Source: a virus. From it: a DNA stretch of 33,572 nucleotides. Where the stretch lies: positions 1 through 33,572 of IMG/VR virus record IMGVR_UViG_3300030106_005119; one strand, 5' to 3'. The notes under the pieces are model-generated. The model was not told where the DNA came from, searched no databases, and saw nothing but the letters and a program-made list of their open reading frames with translations. The number at the start of each line of letters is the position of its first letter. The stretch's first letter is position 1. Positions 9,389 through 22,734 of this stretch are shown in pieces. The position numbers and the translations under genes were made by a program.

Positions 9389-10075
9389 TTACGCTGCTTC
9401 GTCATTCTTGTGCCCATTCAATATTTTGCCGATAGTACGCAAAGACAGCTTCACTTTATTTTGGCCACATGAATATCGTTCAATTATGTCCTTCTGAATC
9501 TCTCGGTAACTCTTACCCTCCAAACTCATCTCAATCATGCGATCAATAGCAAGTGCGCGATAACCGTGATCGAACACCCTGTCATCGTCAACAAACTGCC
9601 CCCACTTACAATCTGAGCGGGTGGAGTACAAACCCTTAGCCTTCTTCTCAGCGCGGCCTTCGGCAGTTCTCTCAACGAGGTTCTTACGCTCCCATTCGAT
9701 GAACATGGACATGACAGAGACCAGTAACGCTGCCATCTGATCTTCTGGGTCAGTGAGCTTGCCAAAGTCACCTGTGATAAGAGTGATATCCGATTTTTTG
9801 AAATCGTCTATCACTTGCAGTATGTCTAGTTGCGTTCTGGATAAACGATCTATCTTGGCGACCAATAAGACATCGCCGGCCTGAAAGTCTATGTCAGCAA
9901 CTCCAGGACGCTCGTAGAACGGTTTAGTGCCAGTGACGGCTAGGTTGTTGATCCATTCATCAACCACTAGGTCGTGCTTGGCTGCGAGGGCATTTATCTG
10001 CTTCTCTTGCCACTCTGGGGAGGTGTTGTCTATCTGGGTGAAACTGGAAACGCGAATGTAGCCGTAGCATTTCAT
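9389..10075 (-). CDS. Serine recombinase (resolvase/invertase type)
   Basis: The 228-aa protein starts MKCYGYIRVSS, placing Arg8 and Ser10 where gamma-delta resolvase has its catalytic Arg8 and Ser10. The second active-site block AKIDRLSR and the helix-E region MSMFIEWERKNLVERTAEGR follow. The C-terminal part (~185-222) contains a short helix-turn-helix, YREIQKDIIERY... SLRTIGKILNG. ATG 10075 is preferred over 10081 because GGAG lies 7 nt before it. It is too short to be a large serine integrase. With a separate tyrosine integrase present, its role may be resolution of multimers or inversion; no target sites were recognised. Confidence 0.85.
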   Translation of the reverse strand: MKCYGYIRVSSFTQIDNTSPEWQEKQINALAAKHDLVVDEWINNLAVTGTKPFYERPGVADIDFQAGDVLLVAKIDRLSRTQLDILQVIDDFKKSDITLITGDFGKLTDPEDQMAALLVSVMSMFIEWERKNLVERTAEGRAEKKAKGLYSTRSDCKWGQFVDDDRVFDHGYRALAIDRMIEMSLEGKSYREIQKDIIERYSCGQNKVKLSLRTIGKILNGHKNDEAA

Positions 10076-10107
10076 ACGCATTCTCCTTTAGAATCCTTAT
10101 AAGCCAT
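10072..10107 (-). CDS. Possible 11-residue leader peptide before the recombinase
   Basis: A tiny frame, MAYKDSKGECV, begins at ATG 10107 with a good AAGGAG site 7 nt upstream, and its TGA overlaps the recombinase ATG as ATGA. The recombinase also has its own GGAG inside this frame. The arrangement would couple recombinase translation to passage of ribosomes through the leader. Expression is unproven. Confidence 0.4.
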   Translation of the reverse strand: MAYKDSKGECV

Positions 10108-10367
10108 CTGAATTTCTCCTTGGTTATTCGGGTGGTTAGGCTGGGGCGTAGCTGTAACTGCGCCCTGTGCCGACCAGTCTACAGTAGATGTGACAGATTT
10201 TTCAAAATTTTTTCAGGAATTTTTTTTTGGTGTGTGGGGACTACCTAGACCCACCCCCCCTACCTGGATTTGAGGGTGGGGTTGCTGGCGAGAGCCCGTA
10301 CTAACAAGCCAACACACGCCAACACGAGGTTCAGCTCCTAAGTCATTGATTGAACTAGATAAAACTG

Positions 10368-10418
10368 GTTTAGCGAGTTTACCTGTTTACACACCTTAGT
10401 AAGTAAACACTGCTAAAC
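10368..10418. repeat. GTTTAC/GTAAAC repeat cluster inside a GTTTAGC/GCTAAAC dyad
   Basis: GTTTAGC (10368-10374) and its inverse GCTAAAC (10412-10418) enclose GTTTAC at 10377-10382 and 10385-10390 and its inverse GTAAAC at 10403-10408. Five related half-sites within 51 bp suggest a cooperative protein-binding site, either an operator for the divergent operons or part of an origin. Confidence 0.55.
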
Positions 10419-10553
10419 GCCTACCTGTAGCGCCTTCTTGTCTTTCTTTGTACTTTTTCTTTCCTTCTCACGCATTTGCCGCGCATAACGCCAGCGTTAC
10501 CTGTGCGATGTGCGAGAGTTGATTAAATATCTACAAATGAAGTGATAAATAGT

Positions 10554-10582
10554 TTTACATCGTAGTAACTAATCGGTACTAT
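10554..10582 (+). promoter_or_regulatory. Early-operon sigma70 promoter
   Basis: TTTACA (10554-10559) is followed after exactly 17 bp by TACTAT (10577-10582), about 45 bp before the first early gene. The -35 matches consensus at 5 of 6 positions and the -10 at 4 of 6. It is the best placed start for the rightward small-gene operon. Confidence 0.6.
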
Positions 10583-10627
10583 TCTTATATCGACTTTACA
10601 GAGCCACTAACTAACCAAGGAAACAAA

Positions 10628-10903
10628 ATGACAGAACGACACTTAACAACGACCTACCACATTGATGAGTCACACGGCTACGTCACGACTACGCTCAGCC
10701 TGTTACGCGAGCTAGGCATAGAGAACGACATAAGCCAATTCAGCTATCAGGACGGCGAGAAGGTATACCTAGAAGAAGACTGCGACCTTTCACGATTCAC
10801 CAAAGCGCTAACAGCTAATAACATCATTTATACCTTCGAAGAAAAGGTTCATTACAAGGATTGTTTTGTGCGCTCTCTCCCACGTTACAGAGTAGGAGCA
10901 TAA
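10628..10903 (+). CDS. Early small protein, unknown function
   Basis: The 91-aa product contains VTTTLSLLRELGIENDISQF, YLEEDCDLSRFTKAL and ends KDCFVRSLPRYRVGA. I do not assign a function. It is the first gene after the early promoter and has the leader AACCAAGGAAACAAA directly before its ATG, the same ribosome-site block used by two later early genes. First-position early genes of temperate phages often act on host processes; that is inference only. Confidence 0.7.
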   Translation: MTERHLTTTYHIDESHGYVTTTLSLLRELGIENDISQFSYQDGEKVYLEEDCDLSRFTKALTANNIIYTFEEKVHYKDCFVRSLPRYRVGA

Positions 10904-10905
10904 CC

Positions 10906-11100
10906 ATGGATCGACTCATAACCTTTATATGCTTCTCAATGTGCATAGTACCAGCGCTAACCATGGCGCTGTTTCTATGGGCTATCGTTAGCAATCAATT
11001 CCTACCACTAGAAATCTTCACAATAGGTTTCAGCTATACGTTCCTGGCGTATTTCTTATTTGACTATCTATTGAAGAAGAGAAGCAAAGAAAACGATTAG
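10906..11100 (+). CDS. Small two-helix membrane protein
   Basis: The 64-aa product from ATG 10906 (AGGAG 8 nt upstream) has two hydrophobic segments, ~4-26 (LITFICFSMCIVPALTMALF) and ~33-53 (IFTIGFSYTFLAYFLFDYLL), and a basic tail KKRSKEND. A longer frame starting inside the upstream gene lacks a ribosome site and was rejected. It should insert in the inner membrane. Early-expressed small membrane proteins in phages can serve superinfection exclusion or membrane modification, but nothing in the sequence shows this specifically. Confidence 0.65.
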   Translation: MDRLITFICFSMCIVPALTMALFLWAIVSNQFLPLEIFTIGFSYTFLAYFLFDYLLKKRSKEND

Positions 11101-11160
11101 AGCGCATCTAAAGCGCTCTTTAAGAGAGCGCTTATAGATACGCTTTTGTATCGATACCGA
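11101..11160 (+). other. Intergenic double-hairpin RNA element, copy 1
   Basis: Hairpin 1 is AGCGCTCT (11112-11119)/AGAGCGCT (11125-11132), extended by an outer stem ATCTA/TAGAT. Hairpin 2 is GATAC (11137-11141)/GTATC (11148-11152). The outer stem of hairpin 1 and hairpin 2 share bases 11137-11139, so the full forms exclude each other. The element lies ~20 nt before the AACCAAGGAAACC ribosome site of the next gene. Confidence 0.65.
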
Positions 11161-11178
11161 AAACCAAGGAAACCAAAA

Positions 11179-11541
11179 ATGATTTACGACTATAAGAGAG
11201 AAGAAATAAAGCGACACTTCGAAGACTTTCTAAACGAAAACAAAGATTACTTAATCGAGCATAACGGCGACTCGTGGACTGATGATCTACACCACAAAGC
11301 ATTTAACGAAGATTATTACATCGTAGGGACATACAAAGCGACACAATGGCTTGGCGATATGGCGTTCTCAGTAATTGGTCATATCAAAGACTACGAACAA
11401 TCCAATTTCGGAAAAGTTAACACCGATCTATCTGATCCTGAGAAGGTTGTGAATATGTACACCTACATAGTCGGAGAAGAAATCGTTAACGAGTACATCG
11501 ATAACTTAACTGATGAGCTGTTAGAGAGCGAAGCGGTTTAG
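11179..11541 (+). CDS. Conserved early phage protein, unknown function
   Basis: The 120-aa protein begins MIYDYKREEIKRHFEDFL and contains DDLHHKAFNEDYYIVGTYKA, WLGDMAFSVIGHIKDYEQSN, TDLSDPEKVVNMYTYIVGEE. This block pattern is shared by small proteins of cyanophages and other marine phages; I know no function for it. ATG 11179 is chosen because the AACCAAGGAAACCAAAA ribosome block precedes it; an upstream ATG at 11146 lies inside the RNA element. The product is acidic and probably soluble and helical. Confidence 0.75.
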   Translation: MIYDYKREEIKRHFEDFLNENKDYLIEHNGDSWTDDLHHKAFNEDYYIVGTYKATQWLGDMAFSVIGHIKDYEQSNFGKVNTDLSDPEKVVNMYTYIVGEEIVNEYIDNLTDELLESEAV

Positions 11542-11605
11542 AAACCATCGCAAGCGCTCTCATAAGAGCGCTTAACGATGTTTTTTACATCAATCGATAA
11601 ACAAC
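11542..11605 (+). other. Intergenic double-hairpin RNA element, copy 2
   Basis: Hairpin 1 is AGCGCTCT (11553-11560)/AGAGCGCT (11565-11572), extended by an outer CATCG (11546-11550)/CGATG (11576-11580). Hairpin 2 is GATG (11577-11580)/CATC (11588-11591) around a T-rich loop, and competes with the outer stem. Same design and same distance to the downstream ribosome site as copies 1 and 3. Confidence 0.65.
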
Positions 11606-11619
11606 CAAGGAAACAAAAA

Positions 11620-12264
11620 ATGGATACAGCAATGAAAACACAAAGCGCAGCGCAGCCAATTGAATTTGGTTTTGATGGTTTCGAATGGAACGCATTGAAC
11701 CTGTTCGCATCAAAGCATGACGTTCGATACTACTTGCAAGGTCTACACCTAACACGCGACCGCATAGCAGCGACAAATGGCCATGTACTAATGGCAATTA
11801 GGCATAACGATGTTTTAAAGCAAATGCTCAAAAATTTGCCGGATGAAGGCGTGATTATTCCGACCACCAAAGCAATGGTTACAACAAAAAATAATATTGT
11901 TGAGATTTCTATTGATGACATAGGTAGCGGAACAATAGAAAAACAGTTCGAAATCAAAATTGTCGATTCCAAGTCCACACAAATCGTTCAAGCAATAAAT
12001 GGCAAATTTCCCGATATAGAGCGAGTGATACCTAAAGACATAGAAGCAAGCTATGTAGAGAACAAAAAGCTTACTTTAGATGAAGAACCGCATTTTCAAG
12101 CGCAATACTTCGAACTGGTAGCTAAAGCAGCGCAGCTAATCAGTAAATCATCTTCTAGCAAGCTTTGTTGCGTTCGCGTAGTCGGAAACGCCAACAACGC
12201 TGCCAAGGTGCAGATAAATGGCCGAGCCGATATAGACATCGTTTTGATGCCTTGCAGAGTATAG
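11620..12264 (+). CDS. Two-domain sliding-clamp (DnaN-like) protein
   Basis: The 214-aa product resembles the middle and last domains of bacterial DNA polymerase III beta clamp. RYYLQGLHLTRDRIAATNGH (36-55) matches the DnaN domain-2 pattern RYYLNG...ATDGHRLA. GVIIPTTKAM (77-86) matches VIVPRK. GKFPDIERVIPK (128-139) matches the hallmark GRFPDYRRVLPK. The end IVLMPCRV matches the DnaN C-terminus (VVMPMRL). DnaN is ~366 aa with three domains; domain 1 is absent here. ATG 11620 follows the AACCAAGGAAAC ribosome block. It probably rings DNA and recruits host polymerase; an alternative is a decoy that inhibits the host replisome. Confidence 0.75.
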   Translation: MDTAMKTQSAAQPIEFGFDGFEWNALNLFASKHDVRYYLQGLHLTRDRIAATNGHVLMAIRHNDVLKQMLKNLPDEGVIIPTTKAMVTTKNNIVEISIDDIGSGTIEKQFEIKIVDSKSTQIVQAINGKFPDIERVIPKDIEASYVENKKLTLDEEPHFQAQYFELVAKAAQLISKSSSSKLCCVRVVGNANNAAKVQINGRADIDIVLMPCRV

Positions 12265-12273
12265 GAGGGGAAA

Positions 12274-12399
12274 ATGGAAAAACAATCAAAACAAAAAAAG
12301 AAAACAGTCGGTAAGCCAGTTAAAAAAGGCGACCTCGCTTTTATAGATGAGGGCTTATCGTTTCTATTAAAGCCTAGTAAGAAAAAGAAAAACGATTAA
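12274..12399 (+). CDS. Small Lys-rich protein
   Basis: A 41-aa frame starts at ATG 12274 with a strong AGGAGG site 5 nt upstream. It is flanked by lysine runs (MEKQSKQKKK at the start, PSKKKKND at the end) around a central GDLAFIDEGLSFLLKP. About one third of the residues are Lys. It follows the clamp-like gene by 9 bp. Nucleic-acid binding or binding to an acidic partner is plausible from charge; no family is recognised. Confidence 0.65.
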   Translation: MEKQSKQKKKTVGKPVKKGDLAFIDEGLSFLLKPSKKKKND

Positions 12400-12465
12400 G
12401 GGAGTCATCATCTAAGGCGCTCTCTAAAGAGCGCCTATAGATGCTGATTTTGGCATCGTAACCAA
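12400..12465 (+). other. Intergenic double-hairpin RNA element, copy 3
   Basis: Hairpin 1 is GGCGCTCT (12416-12423)/AGAGCGCC (12428-12435), extended by CATCTA (12409-12414)/TAGATG (12438-12443). Hairpin 2 is GATGC (12440-12444)/GCATC (12453-12457). Compared with copy 1, the first base pair of hairpin 1 (A-T to G-C) and one pair of hairpin 2 (A-T to G-C) change on both sides, keeping pairing. Confidence 0.65.
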
Positions 12466-12476
12466 GGAATAAGACT

Positions 12477-12779
12477 ATGAACCAATACACAAAGCGCTTT
12501 ACAGAGTGCAACCTTACCGACCTAAAAAAGCTTATTCGCTTTTTTGGTAGTTTGCCGAGAAAGACTGAAAACCAATTTTTGCTCTATCAAGCTATGCAAG
12601 TAGCATTTTTGAGAGCTAGCGAGATACCAGCTAGCGAAAAGAGAGCGCCTATCATAGAGAATCGTTTCAACTGTTATGCCTGTAAAGCGCCAATAGTGAG
12701 CCAAGGCGAACAAGTAATAGAGTGCAGCGTTTGCAGCTATCCTCATATGGCTAACGGCCAAGCATACGCAATCAACTAA
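12477..12779 (+). CDS. Early zinc-ribbon protein
   Basis: The 100-aa product has a helical N-terminal half and a C-terminal four-cysteine zinc ribbon: C66-x2-C69 (NCYACK) and C83-x2-C86 (ECSVCSYPH). Zinc ribbons of this size in phages contact RNA polymerase, DNA or another protein; the partner cannot be told. It follows RNA element copy 3 with an ACCAAGGAA ribosome site. A strong terminator follows, so it is the last gene of the first early transcript. Confidence 0.7.
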   Translation: MNQYTKRFTECNLTDLKKLIRFFGSLPRKTENQFLLYQAMQVAFLRASEIPASEKRAPIIENRFNCYACKAPIVSQGEQVIECSVCSYPHMANGQAYAIN

Positions 12780-12787
12780 CAACCAAG

Positions 12788-12816
12788 GCGACTCGCTGGC
12801 CGAGTCGCTTTTTTTT
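12788..12816 (+). terminator. Rho-independent terminator
   Basis: A perfect 8-bp stem GCGACTCG (12788-12795)/CGAGTCGC (12801-12808) with a 5-nt loop is followed by eight Ts (12809-12816). It lies 9 bp after the zinc-ribbon stop and ends the first early transcription unit. Confidence 0.9.
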
Positions 12817-12829
12817 GGCTTTTTGCCAG

Positions 12830-12919
12830 GAGAAGCGAAACGGTCAACGAATCCCTTTTTACCCAAAATTAAGGACAATGCGAAATGAACAACGAATCCC
12901 TTTTTACCGAAATGGAGAG
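12830..12919 (+). repeat. 45-bp imperfect tandem duplication at a gene start
   Basis: CAACGAATCCCTTTTTACC occurs at 12845 and again at 12890, exactly 45 bp apart, with similar GCGAAA context before each. The second copy holds the start and first codons of the Cro-like gene; the first copy is the same region with the start codon lost and a stop (TAA) soon after. Confidence 0.75.
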
Positions 12920-13094
12920 CCGATTTGGATCTGCTCAAAACGTAGCTGATTTATTGAAAATCAGCTTGAAGGGGAGTTATTACGCTTTCAAGCGTGGTAG
13001 CAAACCTTTACCCAACTATATCCGGCAATCTATGATTGCTCATCTAGCACTTGATGAAAAACAAGTCGCTAAACTAACCGAGAAAAAACCATGA
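12885..13094 (+). CDS. Cro-like small DNA-binding protein
   Basis: The 69-aa product has the pattern FGSAQNVADLLKISLKGSYY followed by AFKRGSKPLPNYIRQSMIAH, which fits a short helix-turn-helix of the Cro/YdaS kind (SAQNVADLL = helix 2, SLKGSYYAFKRG = recognition helix). The size is typical of Cro-type regulators. ATG 12885 follows an AAGGA 9 nt upstream within the duplicated segment. It begins a second early cluster after the terminator; its stop overlaps the next ATG. It may control the early operon, but the operator is not known. Confidence 0.55.
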   Translation: MNNESLFTEMESRFGSAQNVADLLKISLKGSYYAFKRGSKPLPNYIRQSMIAHLALDEKQVAKLTEKKP

Positions 13095-13387
13095 TTAAAA
13101 ATGCTATTTACACAATTGATGAAAACGTAGACCAAAAATTTAACATTCTGGGATGGGAAAAAATAACCATCCTTGCTACTCGACTGTTTAAAACAAGAAA
13201 AATAGTGGTTGAGAACGAAGAAACGAATCGGGAAGAAGAACTTACCTTTTACGAGAATATGTTTATTTTTGAGGGGTTGATTGACGGTAGAAGAGATTTA
13301 TCAGAAATGGCAGAGGACGAGTTTCTTGAAACATTAATGCACTGTTATCAATTTCAAGGATTTGTTGGGGAGGTAAACGATGGCTAA
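13091..13387 (+). CDS. Early acidic protein, unknown function
   Basis: The 98-aa product is acidic and soluble (ETNREEELTFYENMFIFEGL, SEMAEDEFLETLMHCYQF). No family is recognised. Its ATG overlaps the stop of the Cro-like gene (ATGA) and its end overlaps the next gene by 8 bp, so it belongs to a tightly coupled four-gene cluster. Small acidic early proteins are common among host-takeover proteins, but no specific evidence is present. Confidence 0.65.
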   Translation: MIKNAIYTIDENVDQKFNILGWEKITILATRLFKTRKIVVENEETNREEELTFYENMFIFEGLIDGRRDLSEMAEDEFLETLMHCYQFQGFVGEVNDG

Positions 13388-13619
13388 TCGTTTAGATCGT
13401 TTTTGCATTCTCATCAAAAACAAAGAAGGCGAGTCTGGCATCTTCGGAGAATTTGGTTCTCCGAAAGATGCTAGTGAATACTATGAGCATTTTTTAAGCG
13501 CACAGTTCAAACAAAACGAGGTAACGATTTTACCGCTAACAATGGTTAATCGTTTAAATGATGCTGGAAATACCGAGGTTTTAGATCCCGACTTCCACAA
13601 GGAGATAATCGATGACTAA
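13380..13619 (+). CDS. Early small protein, unknown function
   Basis: The 79-aa product begins MANRLDRFCILIKNKEGESG and has a mixed alpha/beta pattern with SPKDASEYYEHFLSAQFKQN and VTILPLTMVNRL. This resembles a small strand-helix-strand domain. It overlaps both neighbours by 8 bp, indicating translational coupling. No function is assigned. Confidence 0.65.
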   Translation: MANRLDRFCILIKNKEGESGIFGEFGSPKDASEYYEHFLSAQFKQNEVTILPLTMVNRLNDAGNTEVLDPDFHKEIIDD

Positions 13620-13812
13620 AGAAACTACTTATACAATTTGGTTCCAGGATGGAGGAGGCCGACAAGAGTTCTTAACTGAAGAGCAAATGAGAAAGCAATC
13701 GGAGCGGTATAGCTTTGATGCAGATGAAGTAGTTGAGTCAGGCGAGGTAACTTTTATCGATGAATTAGGTGAAGAGGTCGGCGGTTGCTTTAAAGAAACG
13801 ACCTTAGACTAA
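13612..13812 (+). CDS. Early small acidic protein, unknown function
   Basis: The 66-aa product (TYTIWFQDGGGRQEFLTEEQ, then DADEVVESGEVTFIDELGEE) is acidic with probable beta structure. It overlaps the preceding gene by 8 bp. Its TAA stop (13810-13812) overlaps the stop of the oppositely oriented small terminase gene (13809-13811), so the two operons converge with no spacer and no visible terminator. Confidence 0.65.
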   Translation: MTKETTYTIWFQDGGGRQEFLTEEQMRKQSERYSFDADEVVESGEVTFIDELGEEVGGCFKETTLD

Positions 13813-14249
13813 TCCTCCTTAATCTCTTTAGCCTTGCTGGTTATATCCTTGAGCGCCTGCACGTGCATATCTCCTAAAGAGATATTCACGGTCGGGCCGC
13901 TCTTATCCCCAAATGTATCTGGATCATAACGACTTGCTAACCATTGCCTTACTTGAGTCTGTAGCTTTGCTTTTGGAACGTCTTCTGGATGTTTAACGCC
14001 ATCTGCTATCTCAAGCGTTTCGCCGACAAGCGTTTCCGCTGCGACCTTTCGAGCTTGCTGGTAACGACTCCATCGTTCAGGTTCTTTTTTATCGTGGAGC
14101 CACGCATAGAAAACGCGAGTGCCGACATTGTACTTTTTGGCTACCCGCACGATAGGCATACCCGCCATCACGTCATCGAAAATCATTTGCTCACCGATCT
14201 CCTCGGTAAGCATCTTCTTGCCTTTAGTCGTTATCTTCTGACTGACCAT
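13809..14249 (-). CDS. Terminase small subunit-like protein (TerS)
   Basis: The 146-aa product has an N-terminal helix-turn-helix (EQMIFDDVMAGMPIVRVAKK, VGTRVFYAWLHDKKEPERWS), then the TerS pattern YQQARKVAAETLVGETLEIA and AKLQTQVRQWLASRYDPDTF followed by GDKSG. This order (DNA-binding HTH, oligomerisation helices, RQWLASxxxPxxFGDK) fits the Sf6-like small terminase family. ATG 14249 has GGAG 7 nt upstream. It would recognise the packaging site for the large subunit at 7540-8946; the two genes lie about 4.9 kb apart, which is unusual but not rare. Confidence 0.8.
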   Translation of the reverse strand: MVSQKITTKGKKMLTEEIGEQMIFDDVMAGMPIVRVAKKYNVGTRVFYAWLHDKKEPERWSRYQQARKVAAETLVGETLEIADGVKHPEDVPKAKLQTQVRQWLASRYDPDTFGDKSGPTVNISLGDMHVQALKDITSKAKEIKED

Positions 14250-21630: not shown

Positions 21631-22734
21631 ATGGTTAAGCCAAAAAAGCAAAAGGATGGTCGTTATCGAGTACAAATAAAAAGGCCAAACATAGGTTTGA
21701 GAAAAGATAGAATCTTCAACACCAAGAGAGAAGCGGATCACTACATTGCACAAATAAATCTTAAGTACGCTGACAGCCATGCTGAACCTACGATAATAAA
21801 AAAGCGTTTTGCAGATTTGGTTGAGGAAGTAACCAACAAATCTGTTTTGTACGGCTTAAAGAGAATAGACAAAAAGCCTTACTCAAAAAGCACCATTGAT
21901 AATTGGGCTAACCAGTGGAAGCTTTTGTCTGATGCTGGCAACTTTAAAACGATTCCTGTTAACGATCTAACATGGAAGTTTATGAACAATCGTTTGTGGG
22001 AATTGTTTGATGAAAGAGATTGGCAGTTCAGCACCCACTATAAGTACACCATCGGATTAGGCGTATTGTTTGAATACGCCAAATCCAAATCCTACGTTGC
22101 CAGGAATCCATTGAATGACGTTGAGAAAGGTGATCGTTTTAACAAAGGCAACCAACGCCACCGAGTCGTTACTGAGTCCGAATTTAAACGATTACTATTA
22201 TGTGCAGAGCAGTTAGCGGCTAACGCTCAAAACACCCAAGAATCGTTACTCCATGTATTCATTCGTTTTATGTGGGAAACAGGTTGTAGGCGAGGGGAGT
22301 TACTCAAGCTGGAATACCAAAATATCATCTTTTTAGAAGATGATGATTTTGGAGCGCAGATAATATTCAAAGGTGAGACTACTAAGAACTCAGAAGAAAA
22401 GGTTTCGTTTATCAGCAAAGACTTGGCAAACCTTATCAACGACATAAAGAAAAAAACGAATAACCACAAACTGTTTCTATTCAAAGCGCCATACAAGGAA
22501 TGGGCAACAGTTAAACGAATGGCTAACCTTGATGGTAAGGACGCAAGGTACGATGAACCAATCACTTTTCACCATCTGCGACACTCTTGGGCTACAAGAC
22601 TAGGATCAGCGGGAGCTAACCTAAAAGAACTAAAAGATGCCGCTGGTTGGAAAAGCTCTAGCCAAGCAGATCGTTACGTCCACTCTACAGAGGAGTCTGT
22701 CAGGAGTGCGCTCTTGAAACGTATTAAAGACTAG
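21631..22734 (+). CDS. int: Tyrosine-family site-specific integrase
   Basis: The 367-aa protein has an arm-binding N-terminus (PKKQKDGRYRVQIKRPNIGL), a SAM-like core-binding domain (~55-160) and a C-terminal catalytic domain. Active-site residues visible: R220 in TGCRRGELL, K252 in the beta-hairpin TTKNSEEK, H314 and R317 in FHHLRHSW, W340 in the H/W position (AAGWKSSS), and nucleophile Y349 in DRYVHS. It integrates the phage at a tRNA-Arg(UCU) gene, as the adjacent attP core shows. There is no clear Shine-Dalgarno before ATG 21631. It overlaps the convergent late operon by 11 bp with no terminator. Confidence 0.93.
   Translation: MVKPKKQKDGRYRVQIKRPNIGLRKDRIFNTKREADHYIAQINLKYADSHAEPTIIKKRFADLVEEVTNKSVLYGLKRIDKKPYSKSTIDNWANQWKLLSDAGNFKTIPVNDLTWKFMNNRLWELFDERDWQFSTHYKYTIGLGVLFEYAKSKSYVARNPLNDVEKGDRFNKGNQRHRVVTESEFKRLLLCAEQLAANAQNTQESLLHVFIRFMWETGCRRGELLKLEYQNIIFLEDDDFGAQIIFKGETTKNSEEKVSFISKDLANLINDIKKKTNNHKLFLFKAPYKEWATVKRMANLDGKDARYDEPITFHHLRHSWATRLGSAGANLKELKDAAGWKSSSQADRYVHSTEESVRSALLKRIKD

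Follow-up and report, generated by a model that had tools for sequence, protein, structure and literature searches.

The window, that is, the whole stretch of DNA analyzed here (33,572 bases, an IMG/VR virus record), encodes portal, head, scaffold and terminase proteins together with two recombination functions, a Sak4-like annealing protein and a Cas4-domain exonuclease. Both a serine recombinase (9389-10081) and a tyrosine integrase (21631-22734) are encoded by this phage. Downstream of the recombinase gene lies a run of small plus-strand genes, probably early to judge from the gene arrangement, which is bounded by a weak promoter-like site and a terminator-like hairpin; the promoter scan of positions 10000-14000 gave 4 sites, compared with 7.9 in shuffled sequence. 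Three spaces between these genes hold the elements E1 (11099-11152), E2 (11539-11591) and E3 (12401-12457), each made up of a long stem, with hairpin 1 inside it, and a second hairpin (hairpin 2). The features of the region are listed below, where the relative is a closely related contig and p values for hairpin 2 are those of the linker shuffle and the reuse test, both described further on.

10554-10582, plus strand: promoter-like site ahead of the early-gene run, weak (9 of 12 consensus bases)
10906-11100, plus strand: 64-aa ORF upstream of E1, membrane-like by reading, 98% identical in the relative
11099-11146, plus strand: long stem of E1, starting within the TAG stop codon (11098-11100) of the 64-aa ORF; lower helix 11099-11104/11141-11146, 1x1 mismatch 11105/11140, outer stem 11106-11110/11135-11139, hairpin 1 at 11111-11133
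11137-11152, plus strand: hairpin 2 of E1, GATAC/GTATC, reusing the 3' strand of the stem; p 0.10 (linker shuffle), 0.028 (reuse test)
11163-11171, plus strand: ribosome site ACCAAGGAA after E1; homology to the relative stops at 11172
11179-11541, plus strand: 120-aa ORF between E1 and E2, phrog_10208, function not assigned; ArdA instead in the relative
11539-11587, plus strand: long stem of E2, starting at the TAG stop codon 11539-11541; hairpin 1 at 11552-11573
11577-11591, plus strand: hairpin 2 of E2, GATGT/ACATC; p 0.042 (linker shuffle), 0.64 (reuse test)
11604-11612, plus strand: ribosome site ACCAAGGAA after E2; homology to the relative stops at 11613
11620-12264, plus strand: 214-aa ORF after E2, sliding-clamp-like or phrog_3007
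12401-12451, plus strand: long stem of E3, starting one base after the TAA stop codon 12397-12399; hairpin 1 at 12415-12436
12440-12457, plus strand: hairpin 2 of E3, GATGCT/GGCATC; p 0.012 (linker shuffle), 0.048 (reuse test)
12461-12469, plus strand: ribosome site ACCAAGGAA after E3
12477-12779, plus strand: 100-aa ORF after E3, with a homologue downstream of E2 in the relative (45% over 44 aa)
12785-12811, plus strand: terminator-like hairpin (11 pairs) and T run after the 100-aa ORF

Annotation of the 214-aa ORF was in conflict, the best PHROG (phrog_3007) being named RusA-like resolvase whereas sliding-clamp models also matched, with scores below their cut-offs. A phage DNA search with the window gave one match, which was within the 120-aa gene, and a plasmid search gave no DNA match; positions 11374-11481 of this gene are 73% identical to a gene of Lactococcus phage PMBT69. 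The 120-aa gene has relatives in phages of Lactococcus and of Enterococcus, which is a broad distribution for so small a gene. At 12780-12811 a AACCAAGG box without a gene runs directly into the terminator-like hairpin and its T run, and may be what is left of the ribosome site of a gene since lost. At about 12844-12909, before and at the start of a 69-aa ORF, a direct repeat (AACGAATCCCTTTTTACC, about 18 bases) was observed.

The inverted repeat GCGCTCT-N2-7-AGAGCGC was found exactly three times in the window, at E1, E2 and E3, with none expected from 100 shuffles, and ACCAAGG lies downstream of each element at 11163, 11604 and 12461. An earlier sequence-only reading had described a three-copy element composed of hairpin 1, an outer stem and hairpin 2 ahead of a ribosome site, and the copies, the pairings it quoted and the ribosome sites were all present. 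Fold energies of E1, E2 and E3 were -27.8, -21.1 and -29.3 kcal/mol with z-scores of -5.8, -6.1 and -5.6, and none of 200 shuffles folded equally well. Raw energy was unexceptional, E3 being 10th and E1 13th among 66-nt windows on both strands, with E2 absent from the best 16. The design as first described was incomplete, having missed a lower helix of 6-7 pairs which lies below the outer stem, across a 1x1 mismatch, in the MFE folds of E1-E3. Taken whole, the fold is a single long, imperfect hairpin that has about 20 pairs and spans 48-51 nt, with layouts of 6(1x1)5(0x1)10 in E1, 6(1x1)5(1x2)9 in E2 and 7(1x1)6(0x1)9 in E3, and it begins at or beside the upstream stop codon in each. No Rfam family matched the window at the gathering score. 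The suggestion that such an element precedes each early gene did not hold, since the 91-aa ORF at 10628 has a ribosome site only and the ORFs at 10906 and 12274 have neither.

Pattern scans of IMG/VR for the GCGCTCT hairpin with CCAAGGA returned 3 and 16 stretches, among which the only true kin was contig 3300030372_004473 (L005, L020, L025, L105). This close relative, the one such kin found in IMG/VR, was reached by both pattern and protein scans, and its terminase is 99% identical. The candidate L004 was rejected: it has a similar hairpin before ACCAAGGAG, but CCAAGGA occurs there once, as by chance, and it scored 14.1 bits (E 3.7) with the covariance model. The relative keeps E1 and E2 with different genes between them, while E3 was absent from it by covariance model, so that conservation in relatives, whose absence would have spoken against the earlier reading, extends to two elements in one close relative. 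Among the listed terminase relatives (80 kept of 393), no element was repeated within a locus except in the window and this relative. A covariance-model search, as had been proposed with the earlier reading, was run over 100 loci and the window on both strands (model R1); both copies of the relative scored above noise, but no copies were recovered beyond the five from which the model was built.

In the alignment of these five copies (three from the window and two from the relative) 94.3% of the cells of 21 pairs were paired and six of the 21 pairs had changed on both sides, with none of 500 shuffles as high on either measure, although the copies are few, they come from two genomes, and related sequences can beat such shuffles without structure. 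Slid controls for the same alignment reached at most 57.9% paired. Between E1 of the window and E1 of the relative the 5' strand of the stem has changed at three places and the 3' strand is unchanged; the single mismatch is shifted by one position and the remaining pairs are kept. E1, E2 and E3 are real, structured and covarying. The compensatory changes reported from the window are borne out, and the selected RNA fold that had been argued from them is supported by covariation in the five copies and by two unrelated families of the same design, which are presented below.

BLAST of the window against the relative gave, in this region, homology blocks at 9389-10633, 10896-11172, 11536-11613, 12814-13094 and 13369-13619, and the ORFs between these blocks had no DNA match. 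The edges of homology near the elements were gene edges, located 3 bases past the ATG of the first gene, at the ribosome site after E1, at the last codon ahead of the stop at E2, and at the ribosome site after E2. In the relative, the 120-aa gene behind E1 is replaced by an ArdA anti-restriction gene (PF07275, E 1.3e-35), and the gene behind its E2 is the homologue of the gene which follows E3 in the window. As E1 and E2 are kept while the genes change, these spacers can be regarded as seams of exchangeable early genes, and genes have been exchanged at the elements, presumably by recombination. One rival explanation is that E1-E3 are recombination anchors only, i.e. repeated spacers for homologous gene swaps whose RNA fold has no function of its own. 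The homology which stops at gene edges beside E1 and E2, the annealing protein and exonuclease of the phage, and the 12 downstream and 11 upstream gene families flanking the elements of family D (see below) would all suit such anchors. The compensatory changes, however, keep pairing while the sequence identity needed for recombination is lost, and we regard the anchor explanation as improbable.

Hairpin 2 was weak (-4.5 to -7.4 kcal/mol in E1-E3) and was absent from the ground state of the intact elements. The competing hairpins of the sequence-only reading exist as an alternative pairing, which entered the MFE in four of the five copies only when the first 17 nt, comprising strand 1 and the foot of hairpin 1, were left off. 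The significance of hairpin 2 was assessed in two ways. In the linker-shuffle test the linker alone was shuffled and p was taken by energy. In the reuse test, strong stems before ribosome sites were chosen blind to hairpin 2. A first version was negative (p<=0.1 in 4 of 24 strong stems; mirror control 2 of 20) and was judged to be too insensitive, since strand 3 is pulled into the stem in the MFE; when redone with a different stem definition, p<=0.05 was obtained in 12 of 20 strong stems and in 1 of 19 mirror controls. Five of the 12 passes belong to one low-complexity family, and counted by family (our own grouping) the result is four of nine; nor is the test fully independent, because several of the passing stems had suggested the idea. 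It failed for E2 (0.64), E2 of the relative (0.40) and L139 (0.77), in the case of E2 because the stem absorbed strand 3. When fragments were started from the internal loop or mismatch, at positions which we placed ourselves, all 14 folded into a hairpin, at a distance of 0-3 nt from the 5' end. We regard reuse of the 3' strand of the stem by hairpin 2 as moderately supported.

The Shine-Dalgarno sequence was mostly unpaired in both predicted states (mean 0.60-0.91 in the intact element, 0.46-0.88 without strand 1), which speaks against the two-state switch on translation that had been among the proposed functions. It also weighs against a wider explanation in which the element is a regulatory RNA, with a protein or a terminating ribosome shifting the balance between long stem and hairpin 2 and thereby altering translation or antitermination. 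In four of the five known copies the start of the stem falls within the TAG stop codon upstream (in E3 it starts just past TAA), so a terminating ribosome would open strand 1, and the appearance of hairpin 2 in the MFE once strand 1 is left off agrees with such a mechanism. Hairpin 2 cannot, on the other hand, prevent termination at the stem because it is transcribed after it. For the nut-like sub-case, with boxA in hairpin 1, we noted CGCTCTTTA, which we take to be boxA, in window E1 and in the two copies that the relative has; the letters are not kept in E2 and E3 of the window, and a nut site was rejected. Overall a regulatory RNA of this kind appears improbable, and refolding after a predicted cut would account better for the alternative pairing.

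The main rival explanation is that E1-E3 are weak intrinsic terminators or attenuators, where the long stem and a U run grade expression along the operon and hairpin 2 is incidental. The stems are strong, and a T run (T4, T6 and T4 in E1, E2 and E3) overlaps or directly ends the 3' strand of each; the PeSL elements of T4-type phages contain terminators and bring about shuffling (PMC4503421). Because T runs are found at all three stems this explanation keeps its weight. The terminator scan did not list E1-E3 on the plus strand, though it is blind to interrupted stems, and most T residues of the run are paired in the predicted stem. In other phages with the same design, the stem end of L133 and of copies A and B of L145 is without four consecutive T, while in copy C of L145 a T8 run follows hairpin 2. 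Terminators would also leave reuse of the 3' strand unexplained. We therefore consider terminators unlikely as the sole explanation, while termination and processing could coexist in E1-E3.

Relatives of the 120-aa gene (phrog_10208) led to elements of the same design in other uncultured phages. There were 128 confirmed relatives in IMG/VR, of which 80 were kept, and reading of the spaces before phrog_10208 genes revealed several contigs in which the three-strand plan recurs although the letters are unrelated. Only 25 of 79 upstream regions (the 80 loci minus one too short) folded at -15 kcal/mol or better, so most relatives of the gene are without a strong upstream stem, and none of 20 spaces in named phages which carry it (Lactococcus 949 and AM9, Enterococcus EFC1) reached the reuse-test criteria. 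Weaker similar hairpins were seen in EFC1, a cultured phage, in two consecutive spaces beside the phrog_10208 gene (L194, 3111-3190 and 3521-3609), with z-scores of -3.2 and -1.3, below those criteria. In contig L182 a 58-nt leader with 98% identity is repeated ahead of two genes (2321-2378 and 2935-2992); its fold is a stem of 16 pairs, with no clear hairpin 2.

Contig L145 contained three copies in three consecutive spaces, following a 48-aa membrane-like ORF, the phrog_10208 gene and the next gene, which is the order of parts seen in the window. Its copies have 21 pairs, 96.8% paired, and in six of these pairs both sides have changed, as high a value being reached in 3 of 500 shuffles. Just upstream of each long stem of this contig (1737-1760, 2220-2246 and 2899-2919) there is an additional G/C-rich hairpin around GTTTAAAC.

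In family D (L130, L132, L133 and L135) the stem begins at the phrog_10208 stop codon, and the layout is 6(1x1)5(2x2)10 in three of the four. The hairpin 2 pattern of this family matched 113 IMG/VR stretches; the 80 loci listed yielded 67 distinct occurrences with enough upstream sequence, 21 with the long stem (including those of L130, L133 and L135 again) and 46 without. The 21 elements were 91.8% paired, a percentage inflated because they were selected for pairing. Both sides had changed in 9 of 21 pairs, compared with 5.2 in shuffles (1 of 500 as high), and 38 cells were doubly changed, compared with 9.4 in shuffles (0 of 500 as high); in the upper helix, both-side changes occurred in 8 of 9 pairs. 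Supporting covariation was thus obtained in three sequence-unrelated families, namely the window with its relative (5 copies), L145 (3) and family D (21). The downstream ORF was readable for 19 of the 21 family D elements and BLASTP sorted these ORFs into 12 families; the 21 upstream ORFs formed 11, and one upstream group (five cases, phrog_10208-like by letters) was followed by four different gene families. PHROG matches were obtained for 2 of 10 downstream ORFs scanned, both to PHROGs without assigned function. One downstream gene of family D (L262) shows 37% identity over 62 aa to the relative's first early gene, indicating that the phage groups of the window and of family D draw on a partly shared pool of small genes.

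Five RNase III sites from between the early genes of T7 (R0.3, R0.5, R1, R1.1 and R1.3) were folded with the same procedure as the elements. These hairpins span 47-53 nt and have an internal loop and a lower helix, with an upper helix of 9-10 pairs in four of five; E1-E3 likewise have about 20 pairs with an internal loop between upper and lower helix, and lie in spaces between the stop codon and ribosome site of small early-type genes. R1, 4(1x1)5(2x3)9 with a loop of 4, and R0.3, 3(1x1)5(1x1)1(2x3)9 with a loop of 4, share with E1-E3 the 1x1 mismatch five pairs below, while the other three sites depart from this layout. Of the 14 elements folded, seven (E1-E3, the relative's E1, L132, L133 and L135) have, in this order, a lower helix, 1x1 mismatch, 5 or 6 pairs, small internal loop and 9 or 10 pairs. 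The other seven show just a single mismatch, a differently placed one, or none at all; the internal loop is missing from L145 copy A and L115, and the mismatch from E2 of the relative. The start of hairpin 2 lies at a distance of 7-12 nt from the stem 3' end, and of 9-12 nt in 12 of the 14 (L134 and L115 at 7). The five T7 cuts fall 9-12 nt from the stem 3' end, and hairpin 2 thus begins about where a T7-type cut would make a new 5' end. By analogy with T7, the predicted new 5' ends are 11137 for E1, 11577 for E2 and 12440 for E3. R1.1 is described as an intercistronic early-region hairpin with an asymmetric internal loop which is cut into 47 and 13 nt (PMC6121014 and PMC8708148, the latter naming proximal, middle and distal RNase III boxes). 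After the cut, a clear 5' hairpin was found in T7 at R1.1 only, whereas hairpin 2 is found in each copy here. The likeness to T7 is one of layout, and cutting of E1-E3 by RNase III is a prediction.

The reading we favor, at a probability of roughly 0.55, is that E1-E3 are candidate intercistronic processing signals of the T7 RNase III kind with a refolding 5' cap hairpin, which double as seams for gene exchange. It builds on the computed folds, the covariation, the layout shared with T7 and the gene swaps at the seams. E1-E3 would lie in a polycistronic early mRNA, where host RNase III would cut the 3' strand of the long hairpin close to its small internal loop, leaving a downstream mRNA whose first base would be the G of GATAC, GATGT or GATGC. 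The freed 3' strand would pair with strand 3 as hairpin 2, and each processed mRNA would thus begin with a 5'-terminal stem-loop which, just ahead of the ribosome site, may hinder 5'-end-dependent decay. Because the element lies wholly between a stop codon and a ribosome site, it would also be a seam for early, partly anti-defence genes, with homologous recombination as the probable route of exchange. The RNase III model explains reuse of the 3' strand, its register, and the stems without a T run in other families. Among the functions offered by the sequence-only reading an RNase III site is therefore the best supported, by its layout, and an mRNA stabiliser would fit the same model.

We suggest more tentatively, at somewhat less than even odds, that these elements represent a widespread class of phage intercistronic 'cut-and-cap' RNA, in which one strand of a candidate RNase III substrate becomes half of a protective hairpin; the class would be defined by structure, comprise at least three sequence-unrelated families and form seams for early anti-host genes. 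If right, this would link the division of an early transcript into separately stabilised mRNAs with swappable accessory genes, subjects usually treated apart, and would provide a structural signature by which early gene arrays in uncultured phages could be recognized from between-gene sequence. The model predicts RNase III-dependent new 5' ends at the first base of hairpin 2. It also bears on a dispute, as the cleavage mode of T7-type sites and their effect on mRNA stability are called contradictory in PMC6993053.

With regard to known systems, an anti-restriction gene lies behind T7 R0.3 (gene 0.3, by annotation) as it does behind E1 of the relative (ArdA). Stem-loops at the 5' terminus reportedly stabilise mRNA, to judge from the titles of Emory 1992, Bouvet and Belasco 1992 and Bricker 1999 as cited in PMC3997798; hairpin 2 would resemble these in lying 0-3 nt from the new 5' end and would differ in forming only after an internal cut. 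Arbiol 2010 and Comeau 2014 reportedly describe the PeSL promoter-terminator cassettes of T4-type phages. E1-E3 are similar to PeSL as repeated stem-loops between small accessory genes where genes exchange but, unlike PeSL with a sigma-70 early promoter in each element, had no sigma-70-like promoter in the scan of 10000-14000. The Frpo single-strand promoter, with -35 and -10 elements within a hairpin (PMC11541004), was rejected, as nothing promoter-like was listed at E1-E3 by the same scan. N4-type hairpin promoters and integron attC sites were set aside from reading. No earlier description of such repeated phage spacers was found in a narrow search of the open-access literature. The SAS/ESAS of Cluster K mycobacteriophages, as described in PMC3203893, comprise a 13-bp sequence that occurs in 11-19 copies, together with sequence-conserved 17-bp repeats, and have no assigned function. 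E1-E3 resemble them as inverted repeats with a variable spacer directly 5' of a conserved start-site sequence at a subset of non-structural genes. The 13-bp GGGATAGGAGCCC was not present at the start sites, where the sequence is ACCAAGGAA, and SAS/ESAS was rejected; unlike SAS/ESAS, E1-E3 are present in three copies, have compensatory changes and carry a second hairpin.
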